The translations under genes were made by a program, and so were the position numbers. Shown piece after piece: positions 17,719 to 32,158 of a stretch of DNA of 32,482 nt (position 1 is the first letter of the stretch; each line of letters opens with the position of its first letter). Below the pieces are notes generated by a model. The model was not told where the DNA came from. It made no database searches and saw nothing but the letters and a program-made list of their open reading frames with translations. This DNA is from Chloroflexota bacterium. Lineage in GTDB: Bacteria > Chloroflexota > Anaerolineae > Promineifilales > Promineifilaceae. The stretch lies in the NCBI GenBank assembly GCA_029559155.1, contig JAKQCM010000340.1, positions 1 to 32,482 of the forward strand, given 5' to 3'.

Positions 17719-19422
17719 TTAACCCAAACCGCCTTGCAGCCAAATTGTTTGGTACGGCCGTATCGTCACCGGCTCCGAAGCTGAAAACGGCCGTTGTCCC
17801 AACAAATCCGTAAAATGTCCAGGCGGCAGGGTGACAACCACCGGCTCGCGGCTGACATTGTGCAGGCACAGCGCCTGCGCCGCGCCGTCCGGGGCCGTGC
17901 GCCGCACGACAAACAGCGCCGGATGCCAAAACAAAATTTCCTGCTCGCCGTTGGGATGGAACGCCGCGCTGCGGCTGCGGGCCTGCAGCAGCCCGCGATA
18001 CCCGGCGAACACCTGCTGGCGCAGCGAACCGGCGCGGCCTAATTCGGCCGTCAGGTGGGCGGCGTCCAGCTTTTGCCGGTTGATGGTCCGGGCGCGGCCG
18101 GTCGTTTGCACGCCATCCGGCCAGCCGCGCGAGCCGAACAGGCTGTGAAAGTAAATGCCCGGCACGCCGCGCAGGGCCAACATGATGGCTTGCGCCGTTA
18201 AAAAGCGGCGGGCAATTAGATTGATGGATTCCTCGGGCACATCCGGATCGGCGAGAGCGTCGAGGTAGTTGATGTTTAGTTCATAGGCTGTCTGGCTGCC
18301 GTCGGGGTTGGCGCGATAGGACACCTGCCCGCCGAGGCGCAGCACGCGGGCCGCCATGTCGGAAACGGCCGTTTCCGACAGCAGCCCGCGCGCCGGAGTC
18401 AGCCCAATGCCATCATGCGAAGCAAGAAAGTTGAAAAAGGTCGTCCGGTCGGAGGGCAAGGTCAGGGTTTGCGCCCAATTCGAGAGAATGTCGGCACGGC
18501 CGTTGTGGAAAGCGTGCAGGGTCAGGGGCGGCAGCGAAAAGTTATACACCAGCTGGGCTTCGTTACGGCCGTTGCCAAAATAGGCGATATTGTCCTGATG
18601 GGGCACATTCGTCTCGGTGATCAGCGCCACCTGCGGCGCAACCAGGTCCAAAATGCTGCGCCATAGTTGAATGATGCGATGCGTTTGCGGCAAGTGCAGG
18701 CAGCTCGTGCCGACCTCCTTCCACATAAAGGCGATGGCATCCAGACGGATCAGGCGCGCGCCTTGCGCCACATAAAACAGCAGCAGCTCGCTGATTTTTA
18801 GCAGCACGTCCGGATTGGCAAAATTCAAGTCAATCTGGTCGGCGCTGAACGTGGTCCAGACGCGGCGCAGTCCGGCGGCGGTTTGCACATCGGTCAGCAG
18901 CGGCAGGGCGCGCGGGCGAAAAACGGCCGTCACATCCGCTCCCGGCTCCGGCACGACAAAATAATCGGTAAAGGGCGGCTCGCCGCGCAAAAACCCCTGG
19001 AACCAATCACTCTGCGCCGAAATGTGGTTAATCACGGCGTCAAACATCAGGCGAAAATCGTGGCCGATTTCGGCCACATCGGCCCAGGTTCCCAGCGCCG
19101 GGTCCACCGCCCAATAATCAATCACCGAAAAGCCATCGTCCGAGGAGTAGGGATAAAAGGGCAGCAGGTGGATGGTGTTGACCACGCCGGACACCTGCCG
19201 GCGCAAAAACGAGGCCAGGGTGTGCAACGGCCGTTCCCCCGCCGCCTGCACCATATCCCCATACGTAATCAGAACCGCGTCCCGTTCATCAAAAAAATCG
19301 GTCGCGCCGCCGGTTAACAGGAGTTGATACCGCTCTATCAGTTCGTCCAGGCGCGGCAAAATCTCCTTCGCCGCCTCTGGCCCGTACAAAAAGTTTAGAT
19401 GCTCTATGATGGTCAAATTCAT
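17719..19422 (-). CDS. GH13_18 phosphorylase, probably glucosylglycerate phosphorylase
   Basis: 567 residues. GH13_18 enzymes split an alpha-glucoside with phosphate to glucose-1-phosphate plus the acceptor. Catalytic residues: nucleophile D228 ('LIRLDAIAF'), acid/base E270 ('ALITETNVPH') and D337 ('LASHDGIG'). The region after the nucleophile, 'MWKEVGTSCLHLPQTH' (233-248), resembles glucosylglycerate phosphorylases (E. coli YcjM type) more than true sucrose phosphorylases; this is from memory of the family. The start codon overlaps the glycerate-kinase stop in an ATGA, and this pairing supports 2-O-alpha-glucosylglycerate as substrate: its products would be glucose-1-phosphate and glycerate. 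Eight octamers lie within the gene or at its edges. Sucrose or glucosylglycerol remain alternatives. It has no signal peptide and is cytoplasmic. Confidence 0.85.
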   Translation of the reverse strand: MNLTIIEHLNFLYGPEAAKEILPRLDELIERYQLLLTGGATDFFDERDAVLITYGDMVQAAGERPLHTLASFLRRQVSGVVNTIHLLPFYPYSSDDGFSVIDYWAVDPALGTWADVAEIGHDFRLMFDAVINHISAQSDWFQGFLRGEPPFTDYFVVPEPGADVTAVFRPRALPLLTDVQTAAGLRRVWTTFSADQIDLNFANPDVLLKISELLLFYVAQGARLIRLDAIAFMWKEVGTSCLHLPQTHRIIQLWRSILDLVAPQVALITETNVPHQDNIAYFGNGRNEAQLVYNFSLPPLTLHAFHNGRADILSNWAQTLTLPSDRTTFFNFLASHDGIGLTPARGLLSETAVSDMAARVLRLGGQVSYRANPDGSQTAYELNINYLDALADPDVPEESINLIARRFLTAQAIMLALRGVPGIYFHSLFGSRGWPDGVQTTGRARTINRQKLDAAHLTAELGRAGSLRQQVFAGYRGLLQARSRSAAFHPNGEQEILFWHPALFVVRRTAPDGAAQALCLHNVSREPVVVTLPPGHFTDLLGQRPFSASEPVTIRPYQTIWLQGGLG

Positions 19423-20714
19423 GAGTCTGTCGCATAGGTTAGCGCCACCAACAAATCGTTGACGTTGGTGCCGGTGGGCGCAGACAGATGCCCCGCGCCC
19501 AGCCGCTGGAAAAAGTGATAGCTGTCGTTGTTGGCCAGATAAGCGGCCGGGTCCAGGCCCGATTGGGCCGCCTGCACGGCCGTTTCCCCCGAAACCACCG
19601 CCCCGGCCACCGGCGTCGGCCCATCCTCGCCATCGGTGGCGAAGCTGGCCACCACGCAGCCGGGCGCGCCGGACAGAGCCACAGCGGCGGCCAGCGCCGC
19701 TTCTTGATTGCGCCCGCCCAAACCAGCGCCTGTGACCGTGACCGTGCTTTCGCCGCCCCAGATCAGGCAGCGGCCGGGCGGCGTTTGGCGCGCCACGTCG
19801 GCGGCCATGCGGCCAATGTCCCGCGCCTCTCCGGTGAGCGTGGTAGAGACGACGGCCGTTTGGAACCCAAGCTGTTCGGCCCGCCGCGCCGCCGCCTCAG
19901 CCGCCAGACTCACATCGCCGATGATGTGGTTGCGGATAAAGTTGCCGGCGGCTGGTTGATGGGGAATGGCGGCGGCGAGGTGACGGGTAACGGCCGTAGC
20001 CGTGGCCTCATCCAGCCGCGCCCACACCTGGTAGGCATCCAAAATCGCCTGCGCTCGCTGCGGGTCCGGCGGTGTAGGCACCGTGGGGCCGCTGCCGATA
20101 TGCGCCAGCCGGTTGCCGATCACATCACTGAGAATAAGACTGACGCAGGCCGCCGGAGCCGCCCACTGCGCCAATCCGCCTCCTTTCACCGTGTCGAACT
20201 GCTGGCGGATGGTGTTGATGTCGTTGATGGCGCAGCCGCTGCGCAGCAGAGCGTCGTTGAGCGCCTGCCACTGGGCCAGCGGCAGCACAGGCCGCGTTAG
20301 CAGCGCCGACGCGCCGCCGGAGACCAGACACAAAACCAGGTCATCGGGCTGCGTTTCGGCCAACAGTTCGTAGACGGCCTGGGTGGCCTGGAGGCTGAGC
20401 TGGCTGGGCAGCGGGTGGCTGCCCGGAAAATATCGCAGGGGCGGCGGCAAATCGGGCACGGCCGTTGCTTTGCTGATGACAACACCGGCGGTCAGTGTAT
20501 CGCCAAGAATGCTGGCCGCGGCCGCAGCCATGGCCACCGCCGCTTTGCCCACACTCACAACAAAAATCCGCGCCGGGGCATACGACTCTCCGGCAACCGT
20601 GACCGCACCGGGCGATGCGGCAATTTGGCTGCTGACGCGCGCGGCGGGGTTGGCGGCCGTCACCGCAGCCAGCGCCAGGGCGGCGACATCTTGTTCAAAC
20701 GTAGCAAAAGACAT
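19419..20714 (-). CDS. Glycerate 2-kinase (GCK/MOFRL family)
   Basis: 431 residues. It phosphorylates D-glycerate with ATP, in this family to 2-phosphoglycerate, feeding lower glycolysis. The N-terminal domain carries K57 ('SVGKAAVAM') and 'CLVSGGASALLTRP' (129-142). The C-terminal MOFRL domain holds 'GAGLGGRNQEAALAAA' (329-344) and 'FATDGEDGPTPVAGAVV' (358-374). The ATG at 20714 has AGGAAG at proper distance; the open frame runs 87 bp further but through intergenic repeat. It lies 135 bp after the GH38 stop and overlaps the phosphorylase start by 4 bp. Hydroxypyruvate reductase annotations are common for this family but the MOFRL motifs indicate a kinase. Confidence 0.92.
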   Translation of the reverse strand: MSFATFEQDVAALALAAVTAANPAARVSSQIAASPGAVTVAGESYAPARIFVVSVGKAAVAMAAAAASILGDTLTAGVVISKATAVPDLPPPLRYFPGSHPLPSQLSLQATQAVYELLAETQPDDLVLCLVSGGASALLTRPVLPLAQWQALNDALLRSGCAINDINTIRQQFDTVKGGGLAQWAAPAACVSLILSDVIGNRLAHIGSGPTVPTPPDPQRAQAILDAYQVWARLDEATATAVTRHLAAAIPHQPAAGNFIRNHIIGDVSLAAEAAARRAEQLGFQTAVVSTTLTGEARDIGRMAADVARQTPPGRCLIWGGESTVTVTGAGLGGRNQEAALAAAVALSGAPGCVVASFATDGEDGPTPVAGAVVSGETAVQAAQSGLDPAAYLANNDSYHFFQRLGAGHLSAPTGTNVNDLLVALTYATDS

Positions 20715-20768
20715 GCTGAGCTTCCTGGTAAGGCTAATTCTGCGGTAATTGTTCCGGTTTCTTTGGCA

Positions 20769-20828
20769 AGACCCCAAGGGTTTTATACCCAAATAATCCA
20801 AATTCTCACGAGCAAACCCTTGGGGTCT
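20769..20828. repeat. 15-bp perfect inverted repeat between GH38 and kinase genes
   Basis: AGACCCCAAGGGTTT (20769-20783) and AAACCCTTGGGGTCT (20814-20828) are perfect complements separated by 30 nt. In the operon transcript this makes a stable hairpin in the 135-bp gap between the GH38 stop and the kinase start, where it could tune mRNA decay or downstream translation. Confidence 0.8.
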
Positions 20829-20849: not shown

Positions 20850-23561
20850 TTAAAGCACGGTCACAATGTAGTCGTAGATGCGCCGCTTGATGCGCAGGCG
20901 GTTGAGCGCCGCGCCAATGGCGGCGATTTCGGCATCTGGTTCATACAGGTAAGCGTAACGCAGCCCGCCCTGTTGCGCCAGTTTGCGCGAATTAAGCAGA
21001 TGAGCAAGCTGGTACTCCAGCTTTTCGCGCTCCAGAATGTAGCAGCGATGCTGCTGGCGCAGGCGGTCGGTTCCGTGGCTTTGAGTAACGGCCGTTTCCG
21101 CCGCCGCCAACTGCTCCGTCAGCTCGTCAATTTGCGCCTGGAGACGAGACAACACGGCCGTATCCGGCAGGCTGGCGCTTTCACCCACGCGCCACGCAGG
21201 ACGATTGCGCCAGGTAACCGGCTGGCCGCCGCCAGCGACGACAGGCGGCAGGGTATGCGGCAGCTGCAAGGTGACGATATGTTTGGGGGCCACGGCCATG
21301 CGCCAACCCACCGGGCTGCCCCAGACATCGGTTTGCCGGTAACTGTGCGCGAGCGGCTGAACGGCCGTTGTCGGATTGTACAGGCGGGCCAGGATACGGC
21401 CGTCGCGGACAGAAAGGCTGCTTAACGGCAGCGATTCTTGCAGCAGCGGCCAGGCGCGCCGGTTGCCCGCGCTCTGCTTGCGCGCGATGAGCGGCGGCGT
21501 TTGATAGGCGGCGTTTAGCTGCTGCAAGGCCATGCTGTCCGGGGTAAACGCGCCGACGGCGACGGCGACTTCGTGGCGCACAGGGCGCTCGCAGCGGGCG
21601 TCGGGCACGTAAAAGAAGGGGCCGGCGTCGCCTATTCTGTCGGGCAAATCGGCTTTGGTGAGCCATTCCACCGACCGGCGCACAATCAGAGACAGATCGC
21701 CGGAGCTTGTGGCGGCGTAGGCGTGCAGACCTTTGGCGAGAACGGCCGTGCTGCGCTCACCATTGGTCACGGCAATAAAATCGTGAAACGGGAAATCGGT
21801 CACGCAGCCCAATTCGCGCTGCCCGATCAGGACCTTTTGCAAGTCGGCGGGAAGCTGCCGGGGCAGTAAATCGTCGTCTACCGGCGCGCGCGACACCACA
21901 TCGAAAGGCATTCCCGCCGCGATGTCGCCGGGCAGGCCAGTGGCAAAGGCCATCTCCACCCGCAAATCCGTGCCGCGAGAGTCCAGATCAACCTGCCAGC
22001 GTAACAGTGGGGAATGGTCGAAAATCAGTCGAATGTCAGCTTTGACATTTGCCGATTCGTTTTGCCAGGCAGCCGAGAAGGTGATTTCGCAGTGCTGGGC
22101 GGATTTTTGGGCGATGATGGGAGGCGCAGACGGCCGTAATTCGCCCAACAATTCCCCTTTTTGCGCGGAGTATGTATCGCCGGCTTCGGCCCAAACCAGC
22201 AGCCGACCCATGCTTTGCCCGTCGAGCAGCAGCTGCCCATCAGGCGAGAGAACGGCCGTGTAATGCGCGTTTTGCCAGACAAAGGGCGTCGTGACGGCTT
22301 CGTTTACCAGAGTAATGGGCAGTCGTTTTTGCACCGGCCAGACGCCGATGCCCTCGGTTTCGGCCCAAAGCAATTCGCCATTCACGGCCTGCCAAACGGC
22401 CGTGGCAAACGGCTGCGTGCTGATGGCGTAATCGCCCGGGGCGAAATCTTGCAAGATCGCCGCCAGCGACGATTGGGCATCGTCGGCGATGGCGTCGAAC
22501 GCCAGCCGGTAGCTGTATTCCATCTTTTCATGCACCTGATCGATGCTGACGCCGCAAATGCAGTCGTGGACTGCGTTTTGCAGCAGCAGGCGCTCCCAAC
22601 GCTCAATGTCGGCGGCGGGAAAGGCGCGCCCGCGCAGCCGGGCCATTGCGGCCAGCGGCTCGGCTACCCGAAACAACATCCGCTGGCAATCGTGGGCCAT
22701 CACCTTCAGATAGGTGCGTGTGGAATACACGCCGGGGAACGTGGCCCCAAATTTGCCGGAGTTGAGTTCGCCACTGATGACCGGCATGGGCACATGTTGC
22801 TGCGCGATGTGGCGGACAAAGGAGGTGGGCGTGGCCTGCTGAAGCGTGATGTCTGGGTTGATTGGACCGGCTTGCCGGAAGAACGTCAGGGGATCTTCGG
22901 GGTTGTCTTCCAGGTCGTAGCCGTCGAAGAGGGGGATGTCGGGTGTGGGGTAGAACGGCCGTAACTTATCTACCTCTCCTTCTAACCGCTGCACCGCTAT
23001 CTCCGGCGCATGGGTCACGCCATACAGGTTGCGATAGCCGCCAAACAAATCCACGGCCAACAATTTGCTGCCGTCTGCGCCCTGCCACTGAAAATAGGGC
23101 GCCAACTGCGGCACGCCGCGCCAGACGAAGACGGCATCCAGACCAAACATGCGGTGAAGCTGTGGTGATTGGCTGATGTGACCGAAGGTGTCCACCAGCC
23201 AGCCCGTTTCCATTGCTGCGCCAAGACGCTGGAGGTCGAGACGGCCGTTCATCAAATTACGAACCAACAACTCCCCACTGCTGATCTGCCAGTCCGGCTG
23301 GCAGTAATAAGGGCCAATCAACAGTTGGTTCTGTTTAACCAACGCCGCCACCCGTGCCGCATATTCCGGCGCCACAGCCAACAAATCCTCAATTACCAGC
23401 GTCTGCCCATCCAGCAAATAACAAAAATCAGGGTTTTGCGCTACCAGTTTCTCCAGCTTATCAATCAGGCCAGGAATCCAGCGGCTGGTATACACCGACG
23501 TTAAAAACCACTCGCGGTCCCAATGAGTATGATTGATGACATGAGCAAGGGTCTCAGGCAT
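20850..23561 (-). CDS. GH38 alpha-mannosidase (MngB-like)
   Basis: 903 residues. GH38 enzymes are zinc-dependent retaining alpha-mannosidases. Zinc ligands H13 and D15 sit in 'NHTHWDREW' (10-18), and the nucleophile and ligand D124 in 'GWLVDTFGHISQSPQL'. A later ligand His is likely in 'NAVHDCICG'. The length and the simple layout match bacterial MngB-type members, one of which hydrolyses phosphomannosylglycerate in E. coli. The start at 23561 is preceded by AAAGG and lies inside the end of the ABC ATPase gene (8-bp overlap), implying coupling. Its neighbours (glycerate kinase, phosphorylase) suggest mannosylglycerate or mannosyl-glucosylglycerate as substrate. Mannan oligosaccharides are an alternative. 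It has no signal peptide. Confidence 0.92.
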   Translation of the reverse strand: MPETLAHVINHTHWDREWFLTSVYTSRWIPGLIDKLEKLVAQNPDFCYLLDGQTLVIEDLLAVAPEYAARVAALVKQNQLLIGPYYCQPDWQISSGELLVRNLMNGRLDLQRLGAAMETGWLVDTFGHISQSPQLHRMFGLDAVFVWRGVPQLAPYFQWQGADGSKLLAVDLFGGYRNLYGVTHAPEIAVQRLEGEVDKLRPFYPTPDIPLFDGYDLEDNPEDPLTFFRQAGPINPDITLQQATPTSFVRHIAQQHVPMPVISGELNSGKFGATFPGVYSTRTYLKVMAHDCQRMLFRVAEPLAAMARLRGRAFPAADIERWERLLLQNAVHDCICGVSIDQVHEKMEYSYRLAFDAIADDAQSSLAAILQDFAPGDYAISTQPFATAVWQAVNGELLWAETEGIGVWPVQKRLPITLVNEAVTTPFVWQNAHYTAVLSPDGQLLLDGQSMGRLLVWAEAGDTYSAQKGELLGELRPSAPPIIAQKSAQHCEITFSAAWQNESANVKADIRLIFDHSPLLRWQVDLDSRGTDLRVEMAFATGLPGDIAAGMPFDVVSRAPVDDDLLPRQLPADLQKVLIGQRELGCVTDFPFHDFIAVTNGERSTAVLAKGLHAYAATSSGDLSLIVRRSVEWLTKADLPDRIGDAGPFFYVPDARCERPVRHEVAVAVGAFTPDSMALQQLNAAYQTPPLIARKQSAGNRRAWPLLQESLPLSSLSVRDGRILARLYNPTTAVQPLAHSYRQTDVWGSPVGWRMAVAPKHIVTLQLPHTLPPVVAGGGQPVTWRNRPAWRVGESASLPDTAVLSRLQAQIDELTEQLAAAETAVTQSHGTDRLRQQHRCYILEREKLEYQLAHLLNSRKLAQQGGLRYAYLYEPDAEIAAIGAALNRLRIKRRIYDYIVTVL

Positions 23562-24645
23562 ATAAAACCTTTCCGCTTTCACGGTCTACCCACCGTATCT
23601 TATCGGCCGGAAAACGCAGCCAAATATCTTCATCCGGCGCAGTGCGAAATGTTGGGTGTGTGGCTACTTTCACCGTATCCTGACCAATCTTCACCGTGAG
23701 CAAATTCTGCGAACCTAACGGTTCTACCACCAACACACGCACCTTCAAGGCCTCGTCCTGCGGCGCATTAAATGCCTCCATATTTTCCGCGCGAATACCT
23801 ATCGCCACCTGTCGGCCATCATACGGCTTAAGCATCGGCAGCATCGCGCTGCTCGGCTGCAACGAAAACTCGCCAATCTGCACAGACAGATCCCCATTCT
23901 CGCGCTGCACCTGCCCCACCATAAAATTCATCGGCGGATTGCCAATAAAACCACCCACAAACTGGTTAGACGGCAAATCATACACCTTTGTCGGTTCATC
24001 AATCTGCTGGATAACGCCATCCTTCATAACGGCAATCCGGTCGCCCATGCTCAAGGCTTCAATTTGGTCATGGGTCACATAAATCGTTGTGGCGTTTAGC
24101 TCGTGGAGCAGGCGTTTCAGTTCGGCGCGCATCTCCAGCCGCAGCAGCGCATCCAGATTACTAAGCGGCTCGTCCATCAACAACACCTCAGCGTCCATGG
24201 CGATGGCTCTGGCCACGGCCACGCGCTGCCGCTGCCCACCGCTCATCTTGCTCGGAAAACGATCCAACATTTTCTCTATATGCATCATTTCCGCCGCCCG
24301 ATTGACCCGCCTTTTAATTTCCTGGTCCTCAGCTTTGCGCATTTTCAGGCCAAAAGCGATGTTATCGTAAACCTTCATGTGCGGAAAAATGGCGTAACTT
24401 TGGAAAACCATTGAGATATTGCGGTCGCGGGGCGGCAAATAGGTCACGTCACGGCCGCCAATGCTGATGCGCCCTTCGTCGGCCATGCCTAAGCCGGCGA
24501 CCGCGCGCAGGAGCGTGGTCTTGCCGCAGCCGCTTGGCCCCAACAGCACCACAAATTCTCGTTCGGCAATCGTCAGGTTTGCTTTATCCACAGCGACAAA
24601 ATCACCAAAACGTTTGACTACATTTTCAATCTTGATCTCAGCCAT
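23554..24645 (-). CDS. ABC transporter ATPase, MsmK/UgpC/MalK type
   Basis: 363 residues, the energising subunit of a CUT1 carbohydrate importer. Walker A GPSGCGKTT (36-44), Q-loop Q82, signature SGGQRQ (135-140), Walker B VLLMDEP (154-160, E159 catalytic) and switch H192 are all intact. The C-terminal part (about 240-363) is a TOBE/OB regulatory domain as in MalK ('VAIGIRAENMEAF', 'LVVEPLGSQNLLTVKIG'). AAGAGG precedes the ATG. It lies 41 bp after the second permease and overlaps the GH38 gene by 8 bp, so the ATPase is dedicated to this importer rather than shared. It carries no octamer. Confidence 0.96.
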   Translation of the reverse strand: MAEIKIENVVKRFGDFVAVDKANLTIAEREFVVLLGPSGCGKTTLLRAVAGLGMADEGRISIGGRDVTYLPPRDRNISMVFQSYAIFPHMKVYDNIAFGLKMRKAEDQEIKRRVNRAAEMMHIEKMLDRFPSKMSGGQRQRVAVARAIAMDAEVLLMDEPLSNLDALLRLEMRAELKRLLHELNATTIYVTHDQIEALSMGDRIAVMKDGVIQQIDEPTKVYDLPSNQFVGGFIGNPPMNFMVGQVQRENGDLSVQIGEFSLQPSSAMLPMLKPYDGRQVAIGIRAENMEAFNAPQDEALKVRVLVVEPLGSQNLLTVKIGQDTVKVATHPTFRTAPDEDIWLRFPADKIRWVDRESGKVLYA

Positions 24646-24686: not shown

Positions 24687-25571
24687 TTACTTGGTGATCT
24701 GACCCCACATATTGAACAAATAGCGGCGAATGATAAAGATGAAGATCATCGAAGGGATCAGCATAAAAAACGCGCCGGCAAACTGGTAAGCCTGGGATGA
24801 TTGTCCCAGGGTATTAAAGACTTGCGCCGGTAACGTGCGGTGCTGGATAGTTAACACACTGGCCGCAAATACCTCATTCCACGACATGACAAAGGTAAAG
24901 ATGGCCGACGCCGCAATACCCGGCAGCACCAGTGGAAAAACCACCTGGCGGAACGCCTGAAAGGGCGTGCAGCCAAACACTTTGGCCGCTTCTTCCAGTT
25001 CATAAGGCACGCTGGCGAAAACGCTGCCGATAATCAGGATGGTTGTCGGCAGGGTTAAGGCAGTGTGCATCAACGCCAAACTGTAGATGCTGTCGAAAAT
25101 GTTGAAATTGATGAAAACCACGACCAGCGGAATCGCCAACACGACGATGGGAAAGGCGCGGACCATTAAAATTGCCAACCGGTAAGTATCACGGCCGCGA
25201 AAAATGTAGCGAGAGGTGGCGTAACCGGCCGGGGCGGCAATCAAAGTAGAAAGTACCAGGGTAATCAAGGCGACCAGGACACTATTGATGATCCCGGGCA
25301 CAATGCCTTCCGAAGCCAGGAAAAATTTCAGGGTGGTCAGAGAAAATTCAATGAACGGCAGCACGCCTTTGGGGTAGGCGCGCACATTTTCCGGCGTGGT
25401 CAGAGCCATGGAGGCAATGAACCAGATGGGAATGAGAATCCACAGAACAATGAGGATGGCGACGAGGTAAGTGAAGCCGCGCCGTATTTTTTGCTGCCGC
25501 AGCATTTTGCGATGGATCGCCCGCACTTCCGGGGACACCTGAACAGGATTATTTTCAGTTAAGGCGCTCAT
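24687..25571 (-). CDS. ABC sugar permease, MalG-like (CUT1)
   Basis: 294 residues with six predicted membrane helices, the first at about 33-56. The cytoplasmic EAA loop 'YELEEAAKVFGCTPFQAFRQVVFPLVLPGI' docks to the ATPase; it has the usual EAA...G spacing. The start overlaps the stop of the first permease in ATGA and has GGAGGAGG upstream. It works as a heterodimer with the 25568-26962 product to import the bound sugar-glycerate or oligosaccharide. Confidence 0.95.
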   Translation of the reverse strand: MSALTENNPVQVSPEVRAIHRKMLRQQKIRRGFTYLVAILIVLWILIPIWFIASMALTTPENVRAYPKGVLPFIEFSLTTLKFFLASEGIVPGIINSVLVALITLVLSTLIAAPAGYATSRYIFRGRDTYRLAILMVRAFPIVVLAIPLVVVFINFNIFDSIYSLALMHTALTLPTTILIIGSVFASVPYELEEAAKVFGCTPFQAFRQVVFPLVLPGIAASAIFTFVMSWNEVFAASVLTIQHRTLPAQVFNTLGQSSQAYQFAGAFFMLIPSMIFIFIIRRYLFNMWGQITK

Positions 25572-26962
25572 CCTACTGCCTCCTCCTGGGTACGAATGGT
25601 GCGCAGGTAGAAAATGGCGCTGACCATGGATATGAGCAAAATTAATCCGGCATACGAGGCAGCCACATTGAGATTACGAAAATCGTAGTATTGGCGGTAG
25701 GTTTCGTTTGCCAGCACCGTGACCACGTCGCCGCCACTCAGGGCGACGACGACGGCGAAGACTTGCAGGGCGAGGATGGTGCGTAAAATTAAGGCCACCT
25801 GCAAACTGGGCCGCAGGAGGGGCAAGATGATGTACCGCAGCCGTTGCCAGAGGCCGGCGCCGAACAGTTCGGCCGCTTCCAACACTTCGGTGGAGATGGC
25901 TTGCAGGCCGGAAACGACAATGACCATCACAATGGATGTGGCGCGCCACACTTCAGCCAGGACAATGGCGATGATGATCCAATAACGGGTTTCGGCCGAA
26001 AGATAGGTGACCGGCGCGTCGATGAGTCCCAGGCCTTGCAAGATGGTGTTGAGATAGCCGTTGGTGGTGAAAATGGAAAACCAGACGATGCCGATAGCCA
26101 GGTCGGAGGCGGCGAGGGGAATGGCAAATATATAGAGGAAAAGGCTGCTCAGTTTCAGATTAGCCTGGATAACCAGGGCCATGATAATGGCCAGGACAAA
26201 CTGAATGGGGATGATGATGACGATGAGTAACAAGGTGGTGCGCACGGCCGGCCAGAAGAAGCGGTCGTTGACCATGCGGGAGAGGTATTTGGAGGTGAGT
26301 TCGCCGGTGTTGCCGCGATCGACACGGCCGTTTTCCCCCTCACCAAACACCTGAATATACCGCGACTGCGCCCAGCCTTCGATCATCTCCCCGTTGGCCG
26401 TTTCACCGGCCACCCGGTACCACACTTCCAGAACCACTTGCTCGGAAATGTCTACCTCTGCTCGCGCTTCGAGTTGACCGATGATGGGGCTGTCTTCATT
26501 GGCGTCGGCGTAAACGGCCGTTAACGGGTCCGACTCCGCCCCTAATTTCGACCTCACCGTGCCCAGAACCGGTGTGCCATCCACGGCCGTCTCGCGAATA
26601 CGAATCCGGCTCTCCGCCACCCATCCGGCCACCGCCTGACCATCCGGGCCAACCCCGCTGATCTTAAACCAGGTGTCCGTCAGCAGATTTTGCTCCGCCA
26701 AATCTTCCGGCGGCACAAAATTGCCCTGCCTATCAGAAATTGTCACCGACGCGCCTTGCGGCAATAAGCCCACCAACGCGCTGTCCTGGGATGCCTCGGC
26801 GTTCAACGACAGCGACGCTTCATCATCCCACACCGCCAGCGCTAACCCACGTACCATCGGCCAGGCAAAAAACAAAACCAGATAGATCAACGATGGCAGG
26901 ATAAGCAGATACGGGGCCCAAACAAACTTCTTCCGATTCACAGTCTGTTGTGCTGCGCTCAT
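25568..26962 (-). CDS. ABC sugar permease, MalF-like, with inserted SH3b-like pair
   Basis: 464 residues, much longer than normal (about 300). TM1 (about 15-37) is followed by an insertion of about 190 residues before TM2 (about 241). The insertion contains two similar segments (about 51-123 and 146-206). Each has a 'G.L..GA.V.I' beta start, a 'WF/WY+(I/V)' middle and a closing 'GWVAESRIRI' or 'GWAQSRYIQV', the pattern of bacterial SH3 domains. It should lie outside the membrane where the binding protein docks. The EAA loop 'STEVLEAAELFGAGLWQRLRYIILPLL' is normal. The ATG at 26962 is preferred over an upstream GTG because AAGGGG lies between them. It is cotranscribed with the solute-binding protein and coupled to the next permease. 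Confidence 0.9.
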   Translation of the reverse strand: MSAAQQTVNRKKFVWAPYLLILPSLIYLVLFFAWPMVRGLALAVWDDEASLSLNAEASQDSALVGLLPQGASVTISDRQGNFVPPEDLAEQNLLTDTWFKISGVGPDGQAVAGWVAESRIRIRETAVDGTPVLGTVRSKLGAESDPLTAVYADANEDSPIIGQLEARAEVDISEQVVLEVWYRVAGETANGEMIEGWAQSRYIQVFGEGENGRVDRGNTGELTSKYLSRMVNDRFFWPAVRTTLLLIVIIIPIQFVLAIIMALVIQANLKLSSLFLYIFAIPLAASDLAIGIVWFSIFTTNGYLNTILQGLGLIDAPVTYLSAETRYWIIIAIVLAEVWRATSIVMVIVVSGLQAISTEVLEAAELFGAGLWQRLRYIILPLLRPSLQVALILRTILALQVFAVVVALSGGDVVTVLANETYRQYYDFRNLNVAASYAGLILLISMVSAIFYLRTIRTQEEAVG

Positions 26963-27003
26963 GGCAAACCCCTTCACAAATCTCTTGTACTGCGGATAAA
27001 CAT

Positions 27004-27041: not shown

Positions 27042-29678
27042 CTAATCGTTCACCTGGCAAGGCCCGGCGCTGGCCGGATCAGGCGCCCAGCAAGGCGCGC
27101 CTGTTTCGTCCATCAGGGCTTGCAAGTTTGCGGCTTCCTCATCCAAAACAGTCTGGATGTCTTCACCGTTCAAAACGACACGATCGAACGCATTGCGGAA
27201 GATCTGGTTAATCTCCCCGCCGCGCTCGCCCAAACCAACCGGCAGCAGAGCCGGTAAGGCGTCGGCGGCGTTGGCCTGCGCCGAAACCGCGCCCGCTTCG
27301 ATGCCGATACCTACCGGCAAGTTACTGGTATCCACACCGCCAACCACCGGGAAAAAGCCCAGTTCGTTCAGGACCAATGCCTGGACATACGGCCGTGTCA
27401 GATACTCTATCACCGCTGCGCCTGCTGCCGGGTCTGGCGCGTCAGCCGGAATGCCCAGCCCAACGACCACCGGCATAAAGCCGCGCCCGGCCGGACCGGC
27501 CGGGGCCGGAAACGCCACAAACTGCTCAGGCTGCGTGTTAAACGCGTCCAACAAACGCGCCGTATGGTCAAACGCCACCCAAACCTCGCCCGCCAACAGC
27601 GGCTCCTGCATAAACTCATAATTGATCGATTCCGGATGAATCGTCGGCCACAGGCTGTCACGCGCCCAGGCCAGCATCGCCGCCGCGTCGGCGCTCTTGA
27701 AGTTCGTCACCATGCCGCCGGTAAACGAAGGCCACATGTACCCTTCCAGGAAGCGATGGAACAAACCCGCCTGCGGCAAACCGCACTTTGGCTCGCCCGT
27801 TTCATCCAACAAGTTTTGGCACCACTGGCCGAATTGTTCCCAGGTCAGCGCATTGACATCCGCGCCGTCGGGCAGGTAAGCCAGCGCATCCACGTTAGCG
27901 GCCATAATGTAAGTCGCCTGCATCCAGGGAACGTAATTCAAAAAGTCATCGGTTCCCAACAGCCCGGTTTCCAAGAAGGCAGGAGCCAAATCCCGATCGG
28001 CCATCAGGTCATCGGCCACGTCAATAACGTTCATCAGCGCATTTTCGCGGGCCAGAGGTGGGAATGTGCCGTGCAGCGCCCCAATCACGTCGATTTCGCC
28101 TTTGCCCGACTGGGCGCCGGCCAAAACCAGATCGATCAGTGGGCCTTCTTCGGAGCCGGTGAAATCAAAGCCGCCCTGTTGCAAAATGGCGCGGAACTTC
28201 TCCTGCTCTTCAATCGGCACAAACTGCGTGGAGAAGAATACGGCCGTGCTTGTTCCCGCCGGAGCCATAGCCGCTTCCGACACTTCGCCCAAAGGCGCTA
28301 CCTGGCACGGGCCATCACTCGGCGCATCAGGCGCCCAGCAGGGCGCGCCAGTTTCATTCATCAACGCTTGCAGATTGCCGCCTTCTTCGGCCAGAACAGC
28401 CTGGACATCTTCACCATTCAGAACCACACGGTCGAAGGCATTGCGGTAAATCTGGTTGATTTCGCCGCCGCGATCGCCCAAGCCAACCGGCAGCAGGGCC
28501 GGTAAGGCGTCGGGGGAATTGGCCTGCGCGGCAACTGCGCCAGCCTCAATATCCACGCCAGCCGGTAAATCCGACGTGTCCACGCCATCGACCACCGGGA
28601 AGAAACCCAAATCGCGCAAGACCGCGCCTTGTACGTCTGGCCGAGTCAGGAATTCAATGACCGCTGCGCCAGCTTCAGGATCGGGCGCATCGGCCGGAAT
28701 GCCTAAACCAACCACAACCGGCATAAAGCCGCGTCCGGCCGGGCCGGCGGGCGCGGGGAAAGCAATAAATTGGTCTGGCTGGGCGTTAAAGGCGTCCAAT
28801 AACCGGGCCGTATGGTCAAACGCTACCCAAACTTCGCCGGCCATCAAAGGTTCTTGCATGAATTCATAGTTGATGGATTCGGGGTGGATGGTGGGCCACA
28901 AGGTATCGCGCGCCCACACCAGCATATCCATGGCCGCTGTACTCTGGAAATTGGAGACCATGCCGCCGGTAAAGGAGGGCCACATGTACCCTTCCAGGAA
29001 GCGGTGGAACAGACCGGCTTGCGGCAAGCCGCACTTCGGTTCGCCGGTTTCGCTCAGGATGTTTTGGCACCATTGGCCAAATTGTTCCCAGGTGAGCGCG
29101 TTGATGTCTGCGCCGTCTGGCAAGTAAGGCAAGGCCTCTGTATTGGCGGCCATGATGTAGGTGGCCTGCATCCAGGGGATGTAATAAAGGAAGTCTTCGG
29201 TGCCGAGCAGGCCGGTTTTGAGGTAAGCCGGGGCAAGGGTGCGGTCGGCGGATAAATCGTCGGCGATGTCGATCATGTTCATCAGGGCGTTTTCACGCGC
29301 CAGGGGTGGAAAAGAGCCGTGCAGCGCGCCAATCACGTCGATTTCGCCTTTGCCAGACTGCGCGCCGGCGAGAACCAGATCGAGCATGGGGCCTTCTTCG
29401 GAGCCGGTAACGTCAAAGCCGCCTTCCTGAAGAATGGCGCGGAATTTCTCCTGCTCTTCTACCGGCACAAACTGAGTCGAAAAGAAGACAGCGCTGGTGG
29501 AAGTTGGGCTGGTCGTATCGGCGGGGGGTTCTACGGCCGTTTCTGCTGCCACAACCGCTTCTGTGGCCGCTGGCGGCACGGCCGTTGCCGGTTCCTGTGT
29601 GGTTGTGCTGCCGCCGCAAGCAGCCAGCAGCATAACCATGACAATCAGGAACGCAAAAACTTTTAGAGATTTGGACAT
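27042..29678 (-). CDS. Lipoprotein with two tandem solute-binding domains
   Basis: 878 residues, about twice the normal size. The N-terminus is a lipoprotein signal with lipobox LLAAC (C21), then a Pro/Thr/Ala-rich linker (about 22-60). Two complete extracellular solute-binding domains follow, residues 62-460 and 478-876, aligned without a gap at an offset of 416. I count about 60 differences in 399 positions (about 85% identity). Each domain repeats two cysteine pairs (204/216 and 447/458; 620/632 and 863/874). A short linker 'APLGEVSEAAMAPAG' joins them. It should be anchored outside the membrane and deliver sugar to the two permeases. AGGAGGAG precedes the ATG. It is the first structural gene after the LacI regulator (100 bp) and is followed by a strong hairpin. 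Family SBP_bac_1-like; the ligand is inferred only from the operon. Confidence 0.93.
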   Translation of the reverse strand: MSKSLKVFAFLIVMVMLLAACGGSTTTQEPATAVPPAATEAVVAAETAVEPPADTTSPTSTSAVFFSTQFVPVEEQEKFRAILQEGGFDVTGSEEGPMLDLVLAGAQSGKGEIDVIGALHGSFPPLARENALMNMIDIADDLSADRTLAPAYLKTGLLGTEDFLYYIPWMQATYIMAANTEALPYLPDGADINALTWEQFGQWCQNILSETGEPKCGLPQAGLFHRFLEGYMWPSFTGGMVSNFQSTAAMDMLVWARDTLWPTIHPESINYEFMQEPLMAGEVWVAFDHTARLLDAFNAQPDQFIAFPAPAGPAGRGFMPVVVGLGIPADAPDPEAGAAVIEFLTRPDVQGAVLRDLGFFPVVDGVDTSDLPAGVDIEAGAVAAQANSPDALPALLPVGLGDRGGEINQIYRNAFDRVVLNGEDVQAVLAEEGGNLQALMNETGAPCWAPDAPSDGPCQVAPLGEVSEAAMAPAGTSTAVFFSTQFVPIEEQEKFRAILQQGGFDFTGSEEGPLIDLVLAGAQSGKGEIDVIGALHGTFPPLARENALMNVIDVADDLMADRDLAPAFLETGLLGTDDFLNYVPWMQATYIMAANVDALAYLPDGADVNALTWEQFGQWCQNLLDETGEPKCGLPQAGLFHRFLEGYMWPSFTGGMVTNFKSADAAAMLAWARDSLWPTIHPESINYEFMQEPLLAGEVWVAFDHTARLLDAFNTQPEQFVAFPAPAGPAGRGFMPVVVGLGIPADAPDPAAGAAVIEYLTRPYVQALVLNELGFFPVVGGVDTSNLPVGIGIEAGAVSAQANAADALPALLPVGLGERGGEINQIFRNAFDRVVLNGEDIQTVLDEEAANLQALMDETGAPCWAPDPASAGPCQVND
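27051..28247. repeat. Direct repeat, second binding domain
   Basis: Encodes residues 478-876 of the lipoprotein. Its partner lies exactly 1248 bp away (28299-29495) in the same frame with no indel at protein level. Many codon differences are silent, so the duplication is not brand new. Confidence 0.9.
28299..29495. repeat. Direct repeat, first binding domain
   Basis: Encodes residues 62-460 of the lipoprotein. The repeat excludes the signal peptide and the Thr/Pro linker, so the duplication joined the end of one mature domain to the start of the next through a 17-residue linker. Confidence 0.9.
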
Positions 29679-29778: not shown

Positions 29779-30795
29779 TTAGCGGGGTGCGCCTGTTGAT
29801 TGTCGGACGATGATCGAAGGGGTCAAAATGACCTGATTTTGTTCGATTGGTTGGCCATTGATGATTTTGGTCAGCATTTGGGCGACCATACCACCCATTT
29901 GTTGGGCGGGTTGATGGACGGTGGTCAGGGGCGGGTTGGCGTACTCGGCAAGCAAAATGTCATCGAAACCGGTAATGCTGACATCCTGACCCACAACCAG
30001 CCCGCGTTCTTGCACAGCGCTGATCGCGCCCAACGCCAGGAGGTCGTTGCAGGCGACAATCGCAGTCGGCGGCGTCGGTCTATCCAGTAATTGCAAGGCG
30101 CTCTGGCGGCCGGACCGTTGACGGAAATTGGATTCGACGATGAGGTCGGGAGTGTAGGGCAGGTTGTGGGCTTGCAGCCCGTCGATAAACCCCTGGACGC
30201 GGTGAAAAGATTTAGTGAGGTCAGTCGGTTCGGCGATGCAGGCCAGGCGGGTGTGCCCCAGGGCAATAAGATGATCGACAATCTGCCGGACGCCGGAACG
30301 GCCGTCTTCATCCACCAGATGAAAATCATTGCCTTGCTCTGTCCGGCCAAAAGCCACAAAAGGCACGCCATGCTTTTGCAGCAGGTTGATCCGGTTATCT
30401 TCGCGGTGAGTACGCACCAGGATAAACCCATCAAACTGGCGGCTGCGAATATGCTTCAGATAAATGTCTTCTTCATCGCCGGCGTCGGCCGTGGAAATGT
30501 TCAGGTTATAGCCGCGTTCACCTAGGTACTCCACCACTCCGGAGAGGAACTCGCTAAAAAACGGATCGGAAAAACGCAGGGTGTTGGCTGAAGGGAGAAT
30601 AAGGGCGATGCTGTCGGTGCGCTGTTTTTGCAGATTGCGGGCGGTGATATTTGGCTCGTACCCCATTTCTTCCGCGACTCGCTGAACTTCCCGGCGCGTT
30701 TGCGGGCTGATGTCGTCAAAGTCGGCCAGAGCGCGGGACACGGTCGGAATCGATTTCCCGACCCGTTCGGCGATGTCCTTGAGCGTTACCGGCAT
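29779..30795 (-). CDS. LacI-family transcriptional regulator
   Basis: 338 residues. The N-terminal HTH 'TLKDIAERVGKSIPTVSRAL' (4-23) and hinge helix ('ITARNLQKQRT', 50-60) bind a palindromic operator. The remainder is a periplasmic-binding-protein-like sugar sensor ('SIALILPS', 'DGFILVRTH', 'AIVACNDLLALGAISAVQERG', 'ITGFDDILLAEYANPPLTTV'). GAGGAG precedes the ATG. It is the first gene of the sugar operon on the same strand, and its own promoter carries two matching LacI-type operators, so it very likely represses itself and the operon until the imported sugar or a breakdown product is present. An odd unused AAAGGAGG lies just after its stop. Confidence 0.95.
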   Translation of the reverse strand: MPVTLKDIAERVGKSIPTVSRALADFDDISPQTRREVQRVAEEMGYEPNITARNLQKQRTDSIALILPSANTLRFSDPFFSEFLSGVVEYLGERGYNLNISTADAGDEEDIYLKHIRSRQFDGFILVRTHREDNRINLLQKHGVPFVAFGRTEQGNDFHLVDEDGRSGVRQIVDHLIALGHTRLACIAEPTDLTKSFHRVQGFIDGLQAHNLPYTPDLIVESNFRQRSGRQSALQLLDRPTPPTAIVACNDLLALGAISAVQERGLVVGQDVSITGFDDILLAEYANPPLTTVHQPAQQMGGMVAQMLTKIINGQPIEQNQVILTPSIIVRQSTGAPR

Positions 30796-31130: not shown

Positions 31131-32114
31131 CTAAATTGATGGCGCTTCGTCGGCCACTCTGCTTATGATGCGCCACGCCATCAACGTCAGCCAACGCGAG
31201 GGCTGTTTCTTTTGCCCAAACTCCCATTCGTTCCAGGCTGTCCAGATGGACTCGAGGGTAAATTTTCCCTGCGGACCGGCCTTCCCCTGCACAATTTGCA
31301 GCATATCCCGCAAGCGCGGATCTTGCCTGAGCCAGGGAAAGCGGGTCAGCACATCGAGAACGTGCAGGATGTCGTACCAGACAAAGGGGACTTTAAGCTT
31401 ACGAAAATCGGTTCCCATAAAAAACATGTACGGATGCCGCGCCGCGCTTTCGCTCCATAACGCGAGGAGCGTCTCGGCTCCAATGTGGGCGGCAGGGCTG
31501 TCGCGCCATGTGTCCAACTCGGACAATGCCTTGAGCATCGCCAGATTGGCAAATGGGCAGGGATCGTCTTTACGCCCCGGGCCACGAAATTTGCCCAGTT
31601 CTTTGGAGACAACACAGGGCCAGCCGTTTTCGCGCACCAAATCGGCCAGGTGGGTAACGGCCGTTTGCACTTCCGGCTCATCACCCAAGCCAAATTTTGC
31701 CAGGGCATAAAGGATGAGCGGCGCATCACACAACGCCCAGGCCCATTGCTCCTGGCCGGTTCCCCCGTAGGCGGGCGCGATGTTCATGGGCAGTTGAAAC
31801 GGCCCTTCTTCAGACTGGCGGGCCAAAATGCGGGCGACGATTGTTTCCACCCCGGCATCCTGAATGGTAAGCCCTAAATCGGCGAGGAAGGTCAATTTGT
31901 GAAAGGGCTGGCCGGCGCTCTTGTGGCTGGCAATGACCACGCCCGGCCACGCCGCAAGCCCAGAGACGAGAGATTGCACGCCCGCATCGGCCAGCATGGC
32001 GTCCCGGGCCACGCCGACCAGGGGATCGGTTTCAGGCGCGCCCAACAGATCGCGCCAGGTGCGGTATTGAATCCATGGTTCACCTTCAAGCAGCCAATCG
32101 ATTGGCGCATTCAT
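31131..32114 (-). CDS. Unrecognised soluble alpha-helical protein
   Basis: 327 residues. I do not recognise a firm family. The protein is helix-rich with Trp-rich segments ('IDWLLEGEPWIQYRTWRDLLG' at the N-terminus, 'ESIWTAWNEWEFGQKK' near the C-terminus). Internal helices are loosely repeated ('ILYALAKFG', 'LADLVRENGWPCVVS', 'AMLKALSEL'), reminiscent of the alpha-toroid fold of prenyltransferase/squalene-cyclase-like repeats, but no DxDD motif is visible. There is no signal peptide. The ATG at 32114 is favoured because AAGGTG sits 6 nt upstream; a GTG 9 bp earlier overlaps that site. It is on the same strand as the sugar operon but ends about 235 bp before the lacI promoter, so it is probably separate. 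Confidence 0.8.
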   Translation of the reverse strand: MNAPIDWLLEGEPWIQYRTWRDLLGAPETDPLVGVARDAMLADAGVQSLVSGLAAWPGVVIASHKSAGQPFHKLTFLADLGLTIQDAGVETIVARILARQSEEGPFQLPMNIAPAYGGTGQEQWAWALCDAPLILYALAKFGLGDEPEVQTAVTHLADLVRENGWPCVVSKELGKFRGPGRKDDPCPFANLAMLKALSELDTWRDSPAAHIGAETLLALWSESAARHPYMFFMGTDFRKLKVPFVWYDILHVLDVLTRFPWLRQDPRLRDMLQIVQGKAGPQGKFTLESIWTAWNEWEFGQKKQPSRWLTLMAWRIISRVADEAPSI

Positions 32115-32158
32115 AATCTTCACCTTGCCTCAGTCGGCCGTACCGGCCAGCAATAAAT

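Follow-up and report, generated by a model that had tools for sequence, protein, structure and literature searches.

What does a pair of SH3 domains do on the outside of an ABC importer? The question is raised by the 32,482-nucleotide stretch of Chloroflexota DNA analysed here (the window), which encodes an importer whose MalF-like permease carries such a pair (Table 1). What is known of the purpose of such additional outer domains in ABC importers comes mostly from the P2 domain of MalF.

The SH3 pair and its place in the permease

The first-pass annotation had placed two SH3b-like segments on the outside of a MalF-like subunit and had named a profile search as a way to check this. In Pfam, two stretches of the permease were matched by SH3_3 (PF08239; 45.5 bits, 8.5e-12, cut-off 27), and residues 255-452 by BPD_transp_1 (44.5 bits, cut-off 26.4). 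When the domains were scored separately in a six-frame scan of the whole 5.8-Mb genome, the SH3 domain at 26351-26518 was above the cut-off (30.5 bits) and that at 26609-26800 was below it (22.4 bits, E 7e-4). Among the 54 permease matches and 24 SH3_3 matches of this genome, the two were combined in one ORF only here. The ORF starts with the ATG at 26962; an alternative in-frame GTG is at 26977.

Table 1. Features of the importer locus (window coordinates)
Feature	Position	Strand	Basis
GH13 subfamily 18 phosphorylase, glucosylglycerate-phosphorylase motif ITETN	17719..19422	-	44% identity to E. coli YcjM
Glycerate 2-kinase family (DUF4147/MOFRL)	19419..20801	-	profile match, below equivalog cut-offs
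GH38 glycosidase related to mannosylglycerate hydrolase	20850..23582	-	far below equivalog cut-off of that model
Importer ATPase, UgpC/MalK-type	23554..24645	-	profile matches
Second permease subunit, MalG-type, no insert	24687..25571	-	ORF, Pfam; start codon overlaps stop of first permease
CUT1 (MalF/SugA-type) permease with SH3 pair, 464 aa	25568..26962	-	ORF; Pfam BPD_transp_1 and SH3_3; AlphaFold2 model
Permease membrane core TM2-TM6, residues 231-460	25583..26272	-	Pfam, sequence and structure comparison
Second SH3 domain of permease, residues 147-208	26339..26524	-	Pfam, six-frame scan, model
First SH3 domain of permease, residues 49-125	26588..26818	-	Pfam, six-frame scan, model
Permease TM1, residues 16-44	26831..26917	-	AlphaFold2 helix 16-44; hydropathy
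Lipoprotein, two tandem solute-binding domains, 878 aa	27042..29678	-	ORF, Pfam, model; lipobox LAAC
SBP domain 2, residues 479-876, about 85% identical to domain 1	27051..28244	-	self-comparison, model
SBP domain 1, residues 63-460	28299..29492	-	self-comparison, model
LacI-family regulator	29779..30795	-	profile match

SH3_3 was also matched by 57 of 58 aligned relatives, thus the SH3 pattern of the insert is not due to chance. In an AlphaFold2 model of the full-length permease, built on the alignment of these 58 relatives, residues 45-222 were modelled as beta strands, mostly with a pLDDT of 84-91 (69-72 in two 10-residue blocks). The strands are flanked by the TM1 helix (16-44) and, with helices from residue 225 on, by TM2 (236-266); the membrane part is less sure (pLDDT about 50-85). 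The SH3 pair had no sequence match in the PDB (best E 0.86).

Since the N-terminus ahead of TM1 is rich in Lys and Arg across the whole permease family and the core can be aligned to SugA and MalF, the insert is predicted by homology to lie on the outer face. The closest solved permease by both sequence and fold is SugA of the mycobacterial LpqY-SugABC system (5e-21), whose residues 17-293 aligned structurally with the model (Z 20.3); unlike the window's permease, SugA has no insert. In structural alignment (Foldseek, VIA-align 2) residues 10-456 of the model were matched to 58-509 of MalF, which has eight helices, on both sides of the insert, although the full-length Foldseek matches had an rmsd of 11 Å or more. 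Sequence comparison, in which the match to MalF was confined to the core, aligned residues 235-454 to MalF 281-507 in the same register. By both alignments, the insert occupies the position that the P2 loop has in MalF. P2 is a domain of about 180 residues between helices 3 and 4 (PMC2246101); thus E. coli MalF, also a CUT1 permease, has an extra extracytoplasmic domain at the same site after the first core helix, where the window's permease has two predicted SH3 barrels. Pfam, the model and homology therefore bear out the earlier claim of an outer SH3b-type pair. The insert does lie between TM1 and TM2 as proposed, but comparison with SH3-less orthologues gives it about 171 residues (from about 49 to about 219) instead of the suggested 190 or so.

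Orthologues and origin of the insert

Orthologues were sought in 396 genomes of the class and in all GTDB species genomes. Permeases with two SH3 domains are about 460-500 residues long, those with one about 376-405 and those with none about 290-350; in the alignment TM1 of the SH3-less proteins runs nearly straight into TM2. In a tree computed from the membrane core alone, without the insert, permeases bearing SH3 domains formed one clade (100/99) nested among SH3-less orthologues and divided into a one-SH3 branch (99/96) and a two-SH3 branch (99/93). The SH3 region was thus gained once in this family. Between the two groups the SH3 copies are 24.6-28.2% identical, a comparison that yielded no copy-to-copy assignment.

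Two-SH3 permeases were found in Chloroflexota and in Acidimicrobiia. A few metagenome-assembled genomes (MAGs) labelled Synergistota, Planctomycetota or Cyanobacteriota also bear one, but these labels may be wrong and at least one is doubtful. No description of SH3 domains in ABC permeases was found in the open-access papers that were searched. The SH3-bearing design is conserved, belongs to two phyla and has been little noticed. As a side observation, two-SH3 importers are frequent among Acidimicrobiia (L124-L159), which suggests transfer between phyla. In three of the MAGs labelled Planctomycetota or Synergistota (L127, L128 and L134) a solute-binding protein (SBP) free of a lipobox is nested among lipobox-bearing ones.

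Cargo and binding proteins of the importer

The signature (T/S)ETN marks glucosylglycerate phosphorylases (PMC7178133). The GH13 protein of the window contains ITETNVPH, [S/T]ETN is present in all 49 linked GH13 homologues, and over 564 residues the protein shares 44% identity with YcjM of E. coli, which is annotated as glucosylglycerate phosphorylase. On this motif it is predicted to be a glucosylglycerate phosphorylase (GH13_18). Because such an enzyme and a glycerate kinase are predicted in the operon, the importer probably carries glucosylglycerate; mannosylglycerate is perhaps an additional cargo. In ycjMNOP of E. coli, too, a glucosylglycerate phosphorylase adjoins a CUT1 importer, but YcjO (293 residues, 25% identical to the window's permease) has no SH3 domain and YcjN is single. 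An ORF of 330 residues at 31131-32123 (minus strand) had no match in Pfam.

The SBP of the window was modelled by AlphaFold2 as two full domains with a disordered tether (residues 22-58) and a short linker (467-474). It had no sequence match in the PDB; the solved folds nearest to the model are sugar-binding proteins. Its halves are 84.5% identical over 401 aligned residues and 77.6% identical as DNA, but only 54% at third codon positions, hence the duplication is not recent. Of the 137 positions conserved in the family, 134 have the consensus residue in both copies, and the remaining three show swaps among V, I, L and M. Lactococcal GlnPQ likewise has two binding domains in tandem, but these differ in specificity and are fused to the membrane domain (PMC8025302), whereas the window's protein is a separate lipoprotein ORF with its own lipobox and with copies about 85% identical.

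Single SBPs accompany all SH3-less and one-SH3 permeases where the SBP was seen, and most two-SH3 permeases. Of the two-SH3 loci in the GTDB scan whose SBP did not run up to a contig end, seven had a double and three a triple SBP; in three more, at a contig end, the SBP was at least double. In trees the copies of one protein mostly grouped by their own lineage, which implies repeated duplication or repeated homogenisation. The triple proteins (about 1290 residues) were seen in other Chloroflexi, in the operon orthologous to that of the window (L039 10357-14220; L105, L109 and L120). Tandem SBPs look habitual in the window's lineage, two further ones occurring in the same genome (L210 2208-4826, contig C497; L211 900-3350, contig C132); the halves are 88.8% identical in one and 34.9% in the other.

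The one with halves 88.8% identical, 873 residues long, adjoins ordinary permeases of 319 and 316 residues that have no SH3_3 match, which means that tandem SBPs do not need an SH3 permease. The tandem arrangement is a separate, later elaboration that arose repeatedly after the SH3 gain; it probably raises the local number of receptors.

SBPs also differ in anchoring. A lipobox was present in all 30 readable SH3-less systems and in most crown two-SH3 systems, and in none of the one-SH3 or basal two-SH3 systems. In six genomes of this lipobox-free kind (G055, G083, G107, G127, G232 and G279) the other readable SBPs (28 of 28; L179-L208) also lacked it. As the absence is lineage-wide, the idea that the SH3 domains replace the lipid anchor of the SBP was rejected. 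Loss of the lipoprotein pathway was rejected as the cause of the missing lipoboxes, since all 19 genomes examined have Lgt and 18 of them LspA. The sugar SBPs of the six Chloroflexi look secreted.

What the SH3 pair may do

Of the explanations considered, the best is that the SH3 insert is a docking aid for the SBP that resembles P2 by convergence, in line with the first-pass suggestion that outer domains may position the binding protein; we give it about even odds. P2 is not known to have an SH3 fold; SH3 barrels at the P2 site would most likely serve a similar purpose with a different fold. The pair would project from the membrane, contact the SBP, and either hold it over the gate or guide it there. 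Contact between P2 and MalE has been published, to judge from titles cited in PMC3328499, whereas in the window's permease both the contact and a benefit of holding the SBP are inferred by analogy of position. Such an aid would help the one-SH3 and basal two-SH3 importers, because their SBPs have no lipobox. The wider reading, in which a P2-like device was invented a second time through SH3 insertion, came to serve free, single, double and triple SBPs and moved between phyla, is nearly as likely as not. Several observations count against docking: other importers in the same genomes manage without SH3 domains, the missing lipoboxes are a trait of the lineages and not of this importer, and the insert is variable, with a mean pairwise identity among relatives of 41-43% as against 71% in the membrane core.

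To see how the divergence of the insert relates to that of its partners, pairwise distances were compared among 39 two-SH3 loci by partial correlation, with the other importer parts held constant. Insert and SBP gave 0.56 (permutation p ≤ 0.001), close to nothing was seen between the insert and its own membrane core (0.09), and the value with the ATPase was -0.22; the two permeases, a known contact pair, gave 0.51. With the cytoplasmic LacI regulator added as a fast-evolving control, insert-SBP was 0.545 and insert-LacI -0.04. Within Chloroflexota the insert-SBP value fell to 0.31 and within the crown group to 0.22; for crown Chloroflexota (n=18) it was only 0.08, and for Actinomycetota (n=13) it was negative (-0.18). 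Since the correlation vanishes within crown groups, the signal rests on a few deep splits, and as a sign of contact the covariation is suggestive only.

That the pair instead binds peptidoglycan or a wall polymer and so fixes the importer in the wall appears unlikely. SH3_3 is a general bacterial SH3 family, some members of which bind the cell wall, and anchoring in the wall is assumed for many bacterial SH3 domains; the hosts are thought to be monoderm, and the nearest match found outside permeases is a surface protein that is anchored in the membrane and has SH3-like segments in tandem. Against a wall ligand speak the variability of the insert, whose invariant residues are mostly Trp and Gly of the fold type, its divergence, which follows the SBP and not the LacI control, and its persistence in Acidimicrobiia, which have a different wall, as well as in MAGs labelled Synergistota or Planctomycetota (if those labels are right).

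We consider it similarly improbable that the pair is a spacer or an assembly module with no ligand of its own, acting through contacts with the second subunit, folding or stability. High variability with conserved fold positions would suit such a role, and the divergence of the insert within crown Chloroflexota goes with that of the second permease subunit (partial r 0.31, p 0.003) and not with that of the SBP; yet a plain spacer should at times have been lost, and the pair is kept throughout the two-SH3 clade seen.

The permeases of this one orthologous family have zero, one or two SH3 domains, and their SBPs are free or anchored and single, double or triple; this natural series lends itself to comparative study of how permeases catch and retain their SBPs.

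Least probable, and by a wide measure doubtful, is that the SH3 pair evolved together with the tandem SBP as parts of a single device, as the first-pass annotation had suggested: tandem and triple SBPs of this importer family do occur, repeatedly, only in the two-SH3 clade, but the SH3 domains are older, their single gain provides no independent replication, and most two-SH3 importers have a single SBP. Strict coupling of the two features is largely refuted by these single-SBP importers and by the tandem SBP that stands beside plain permeases in the same genome.
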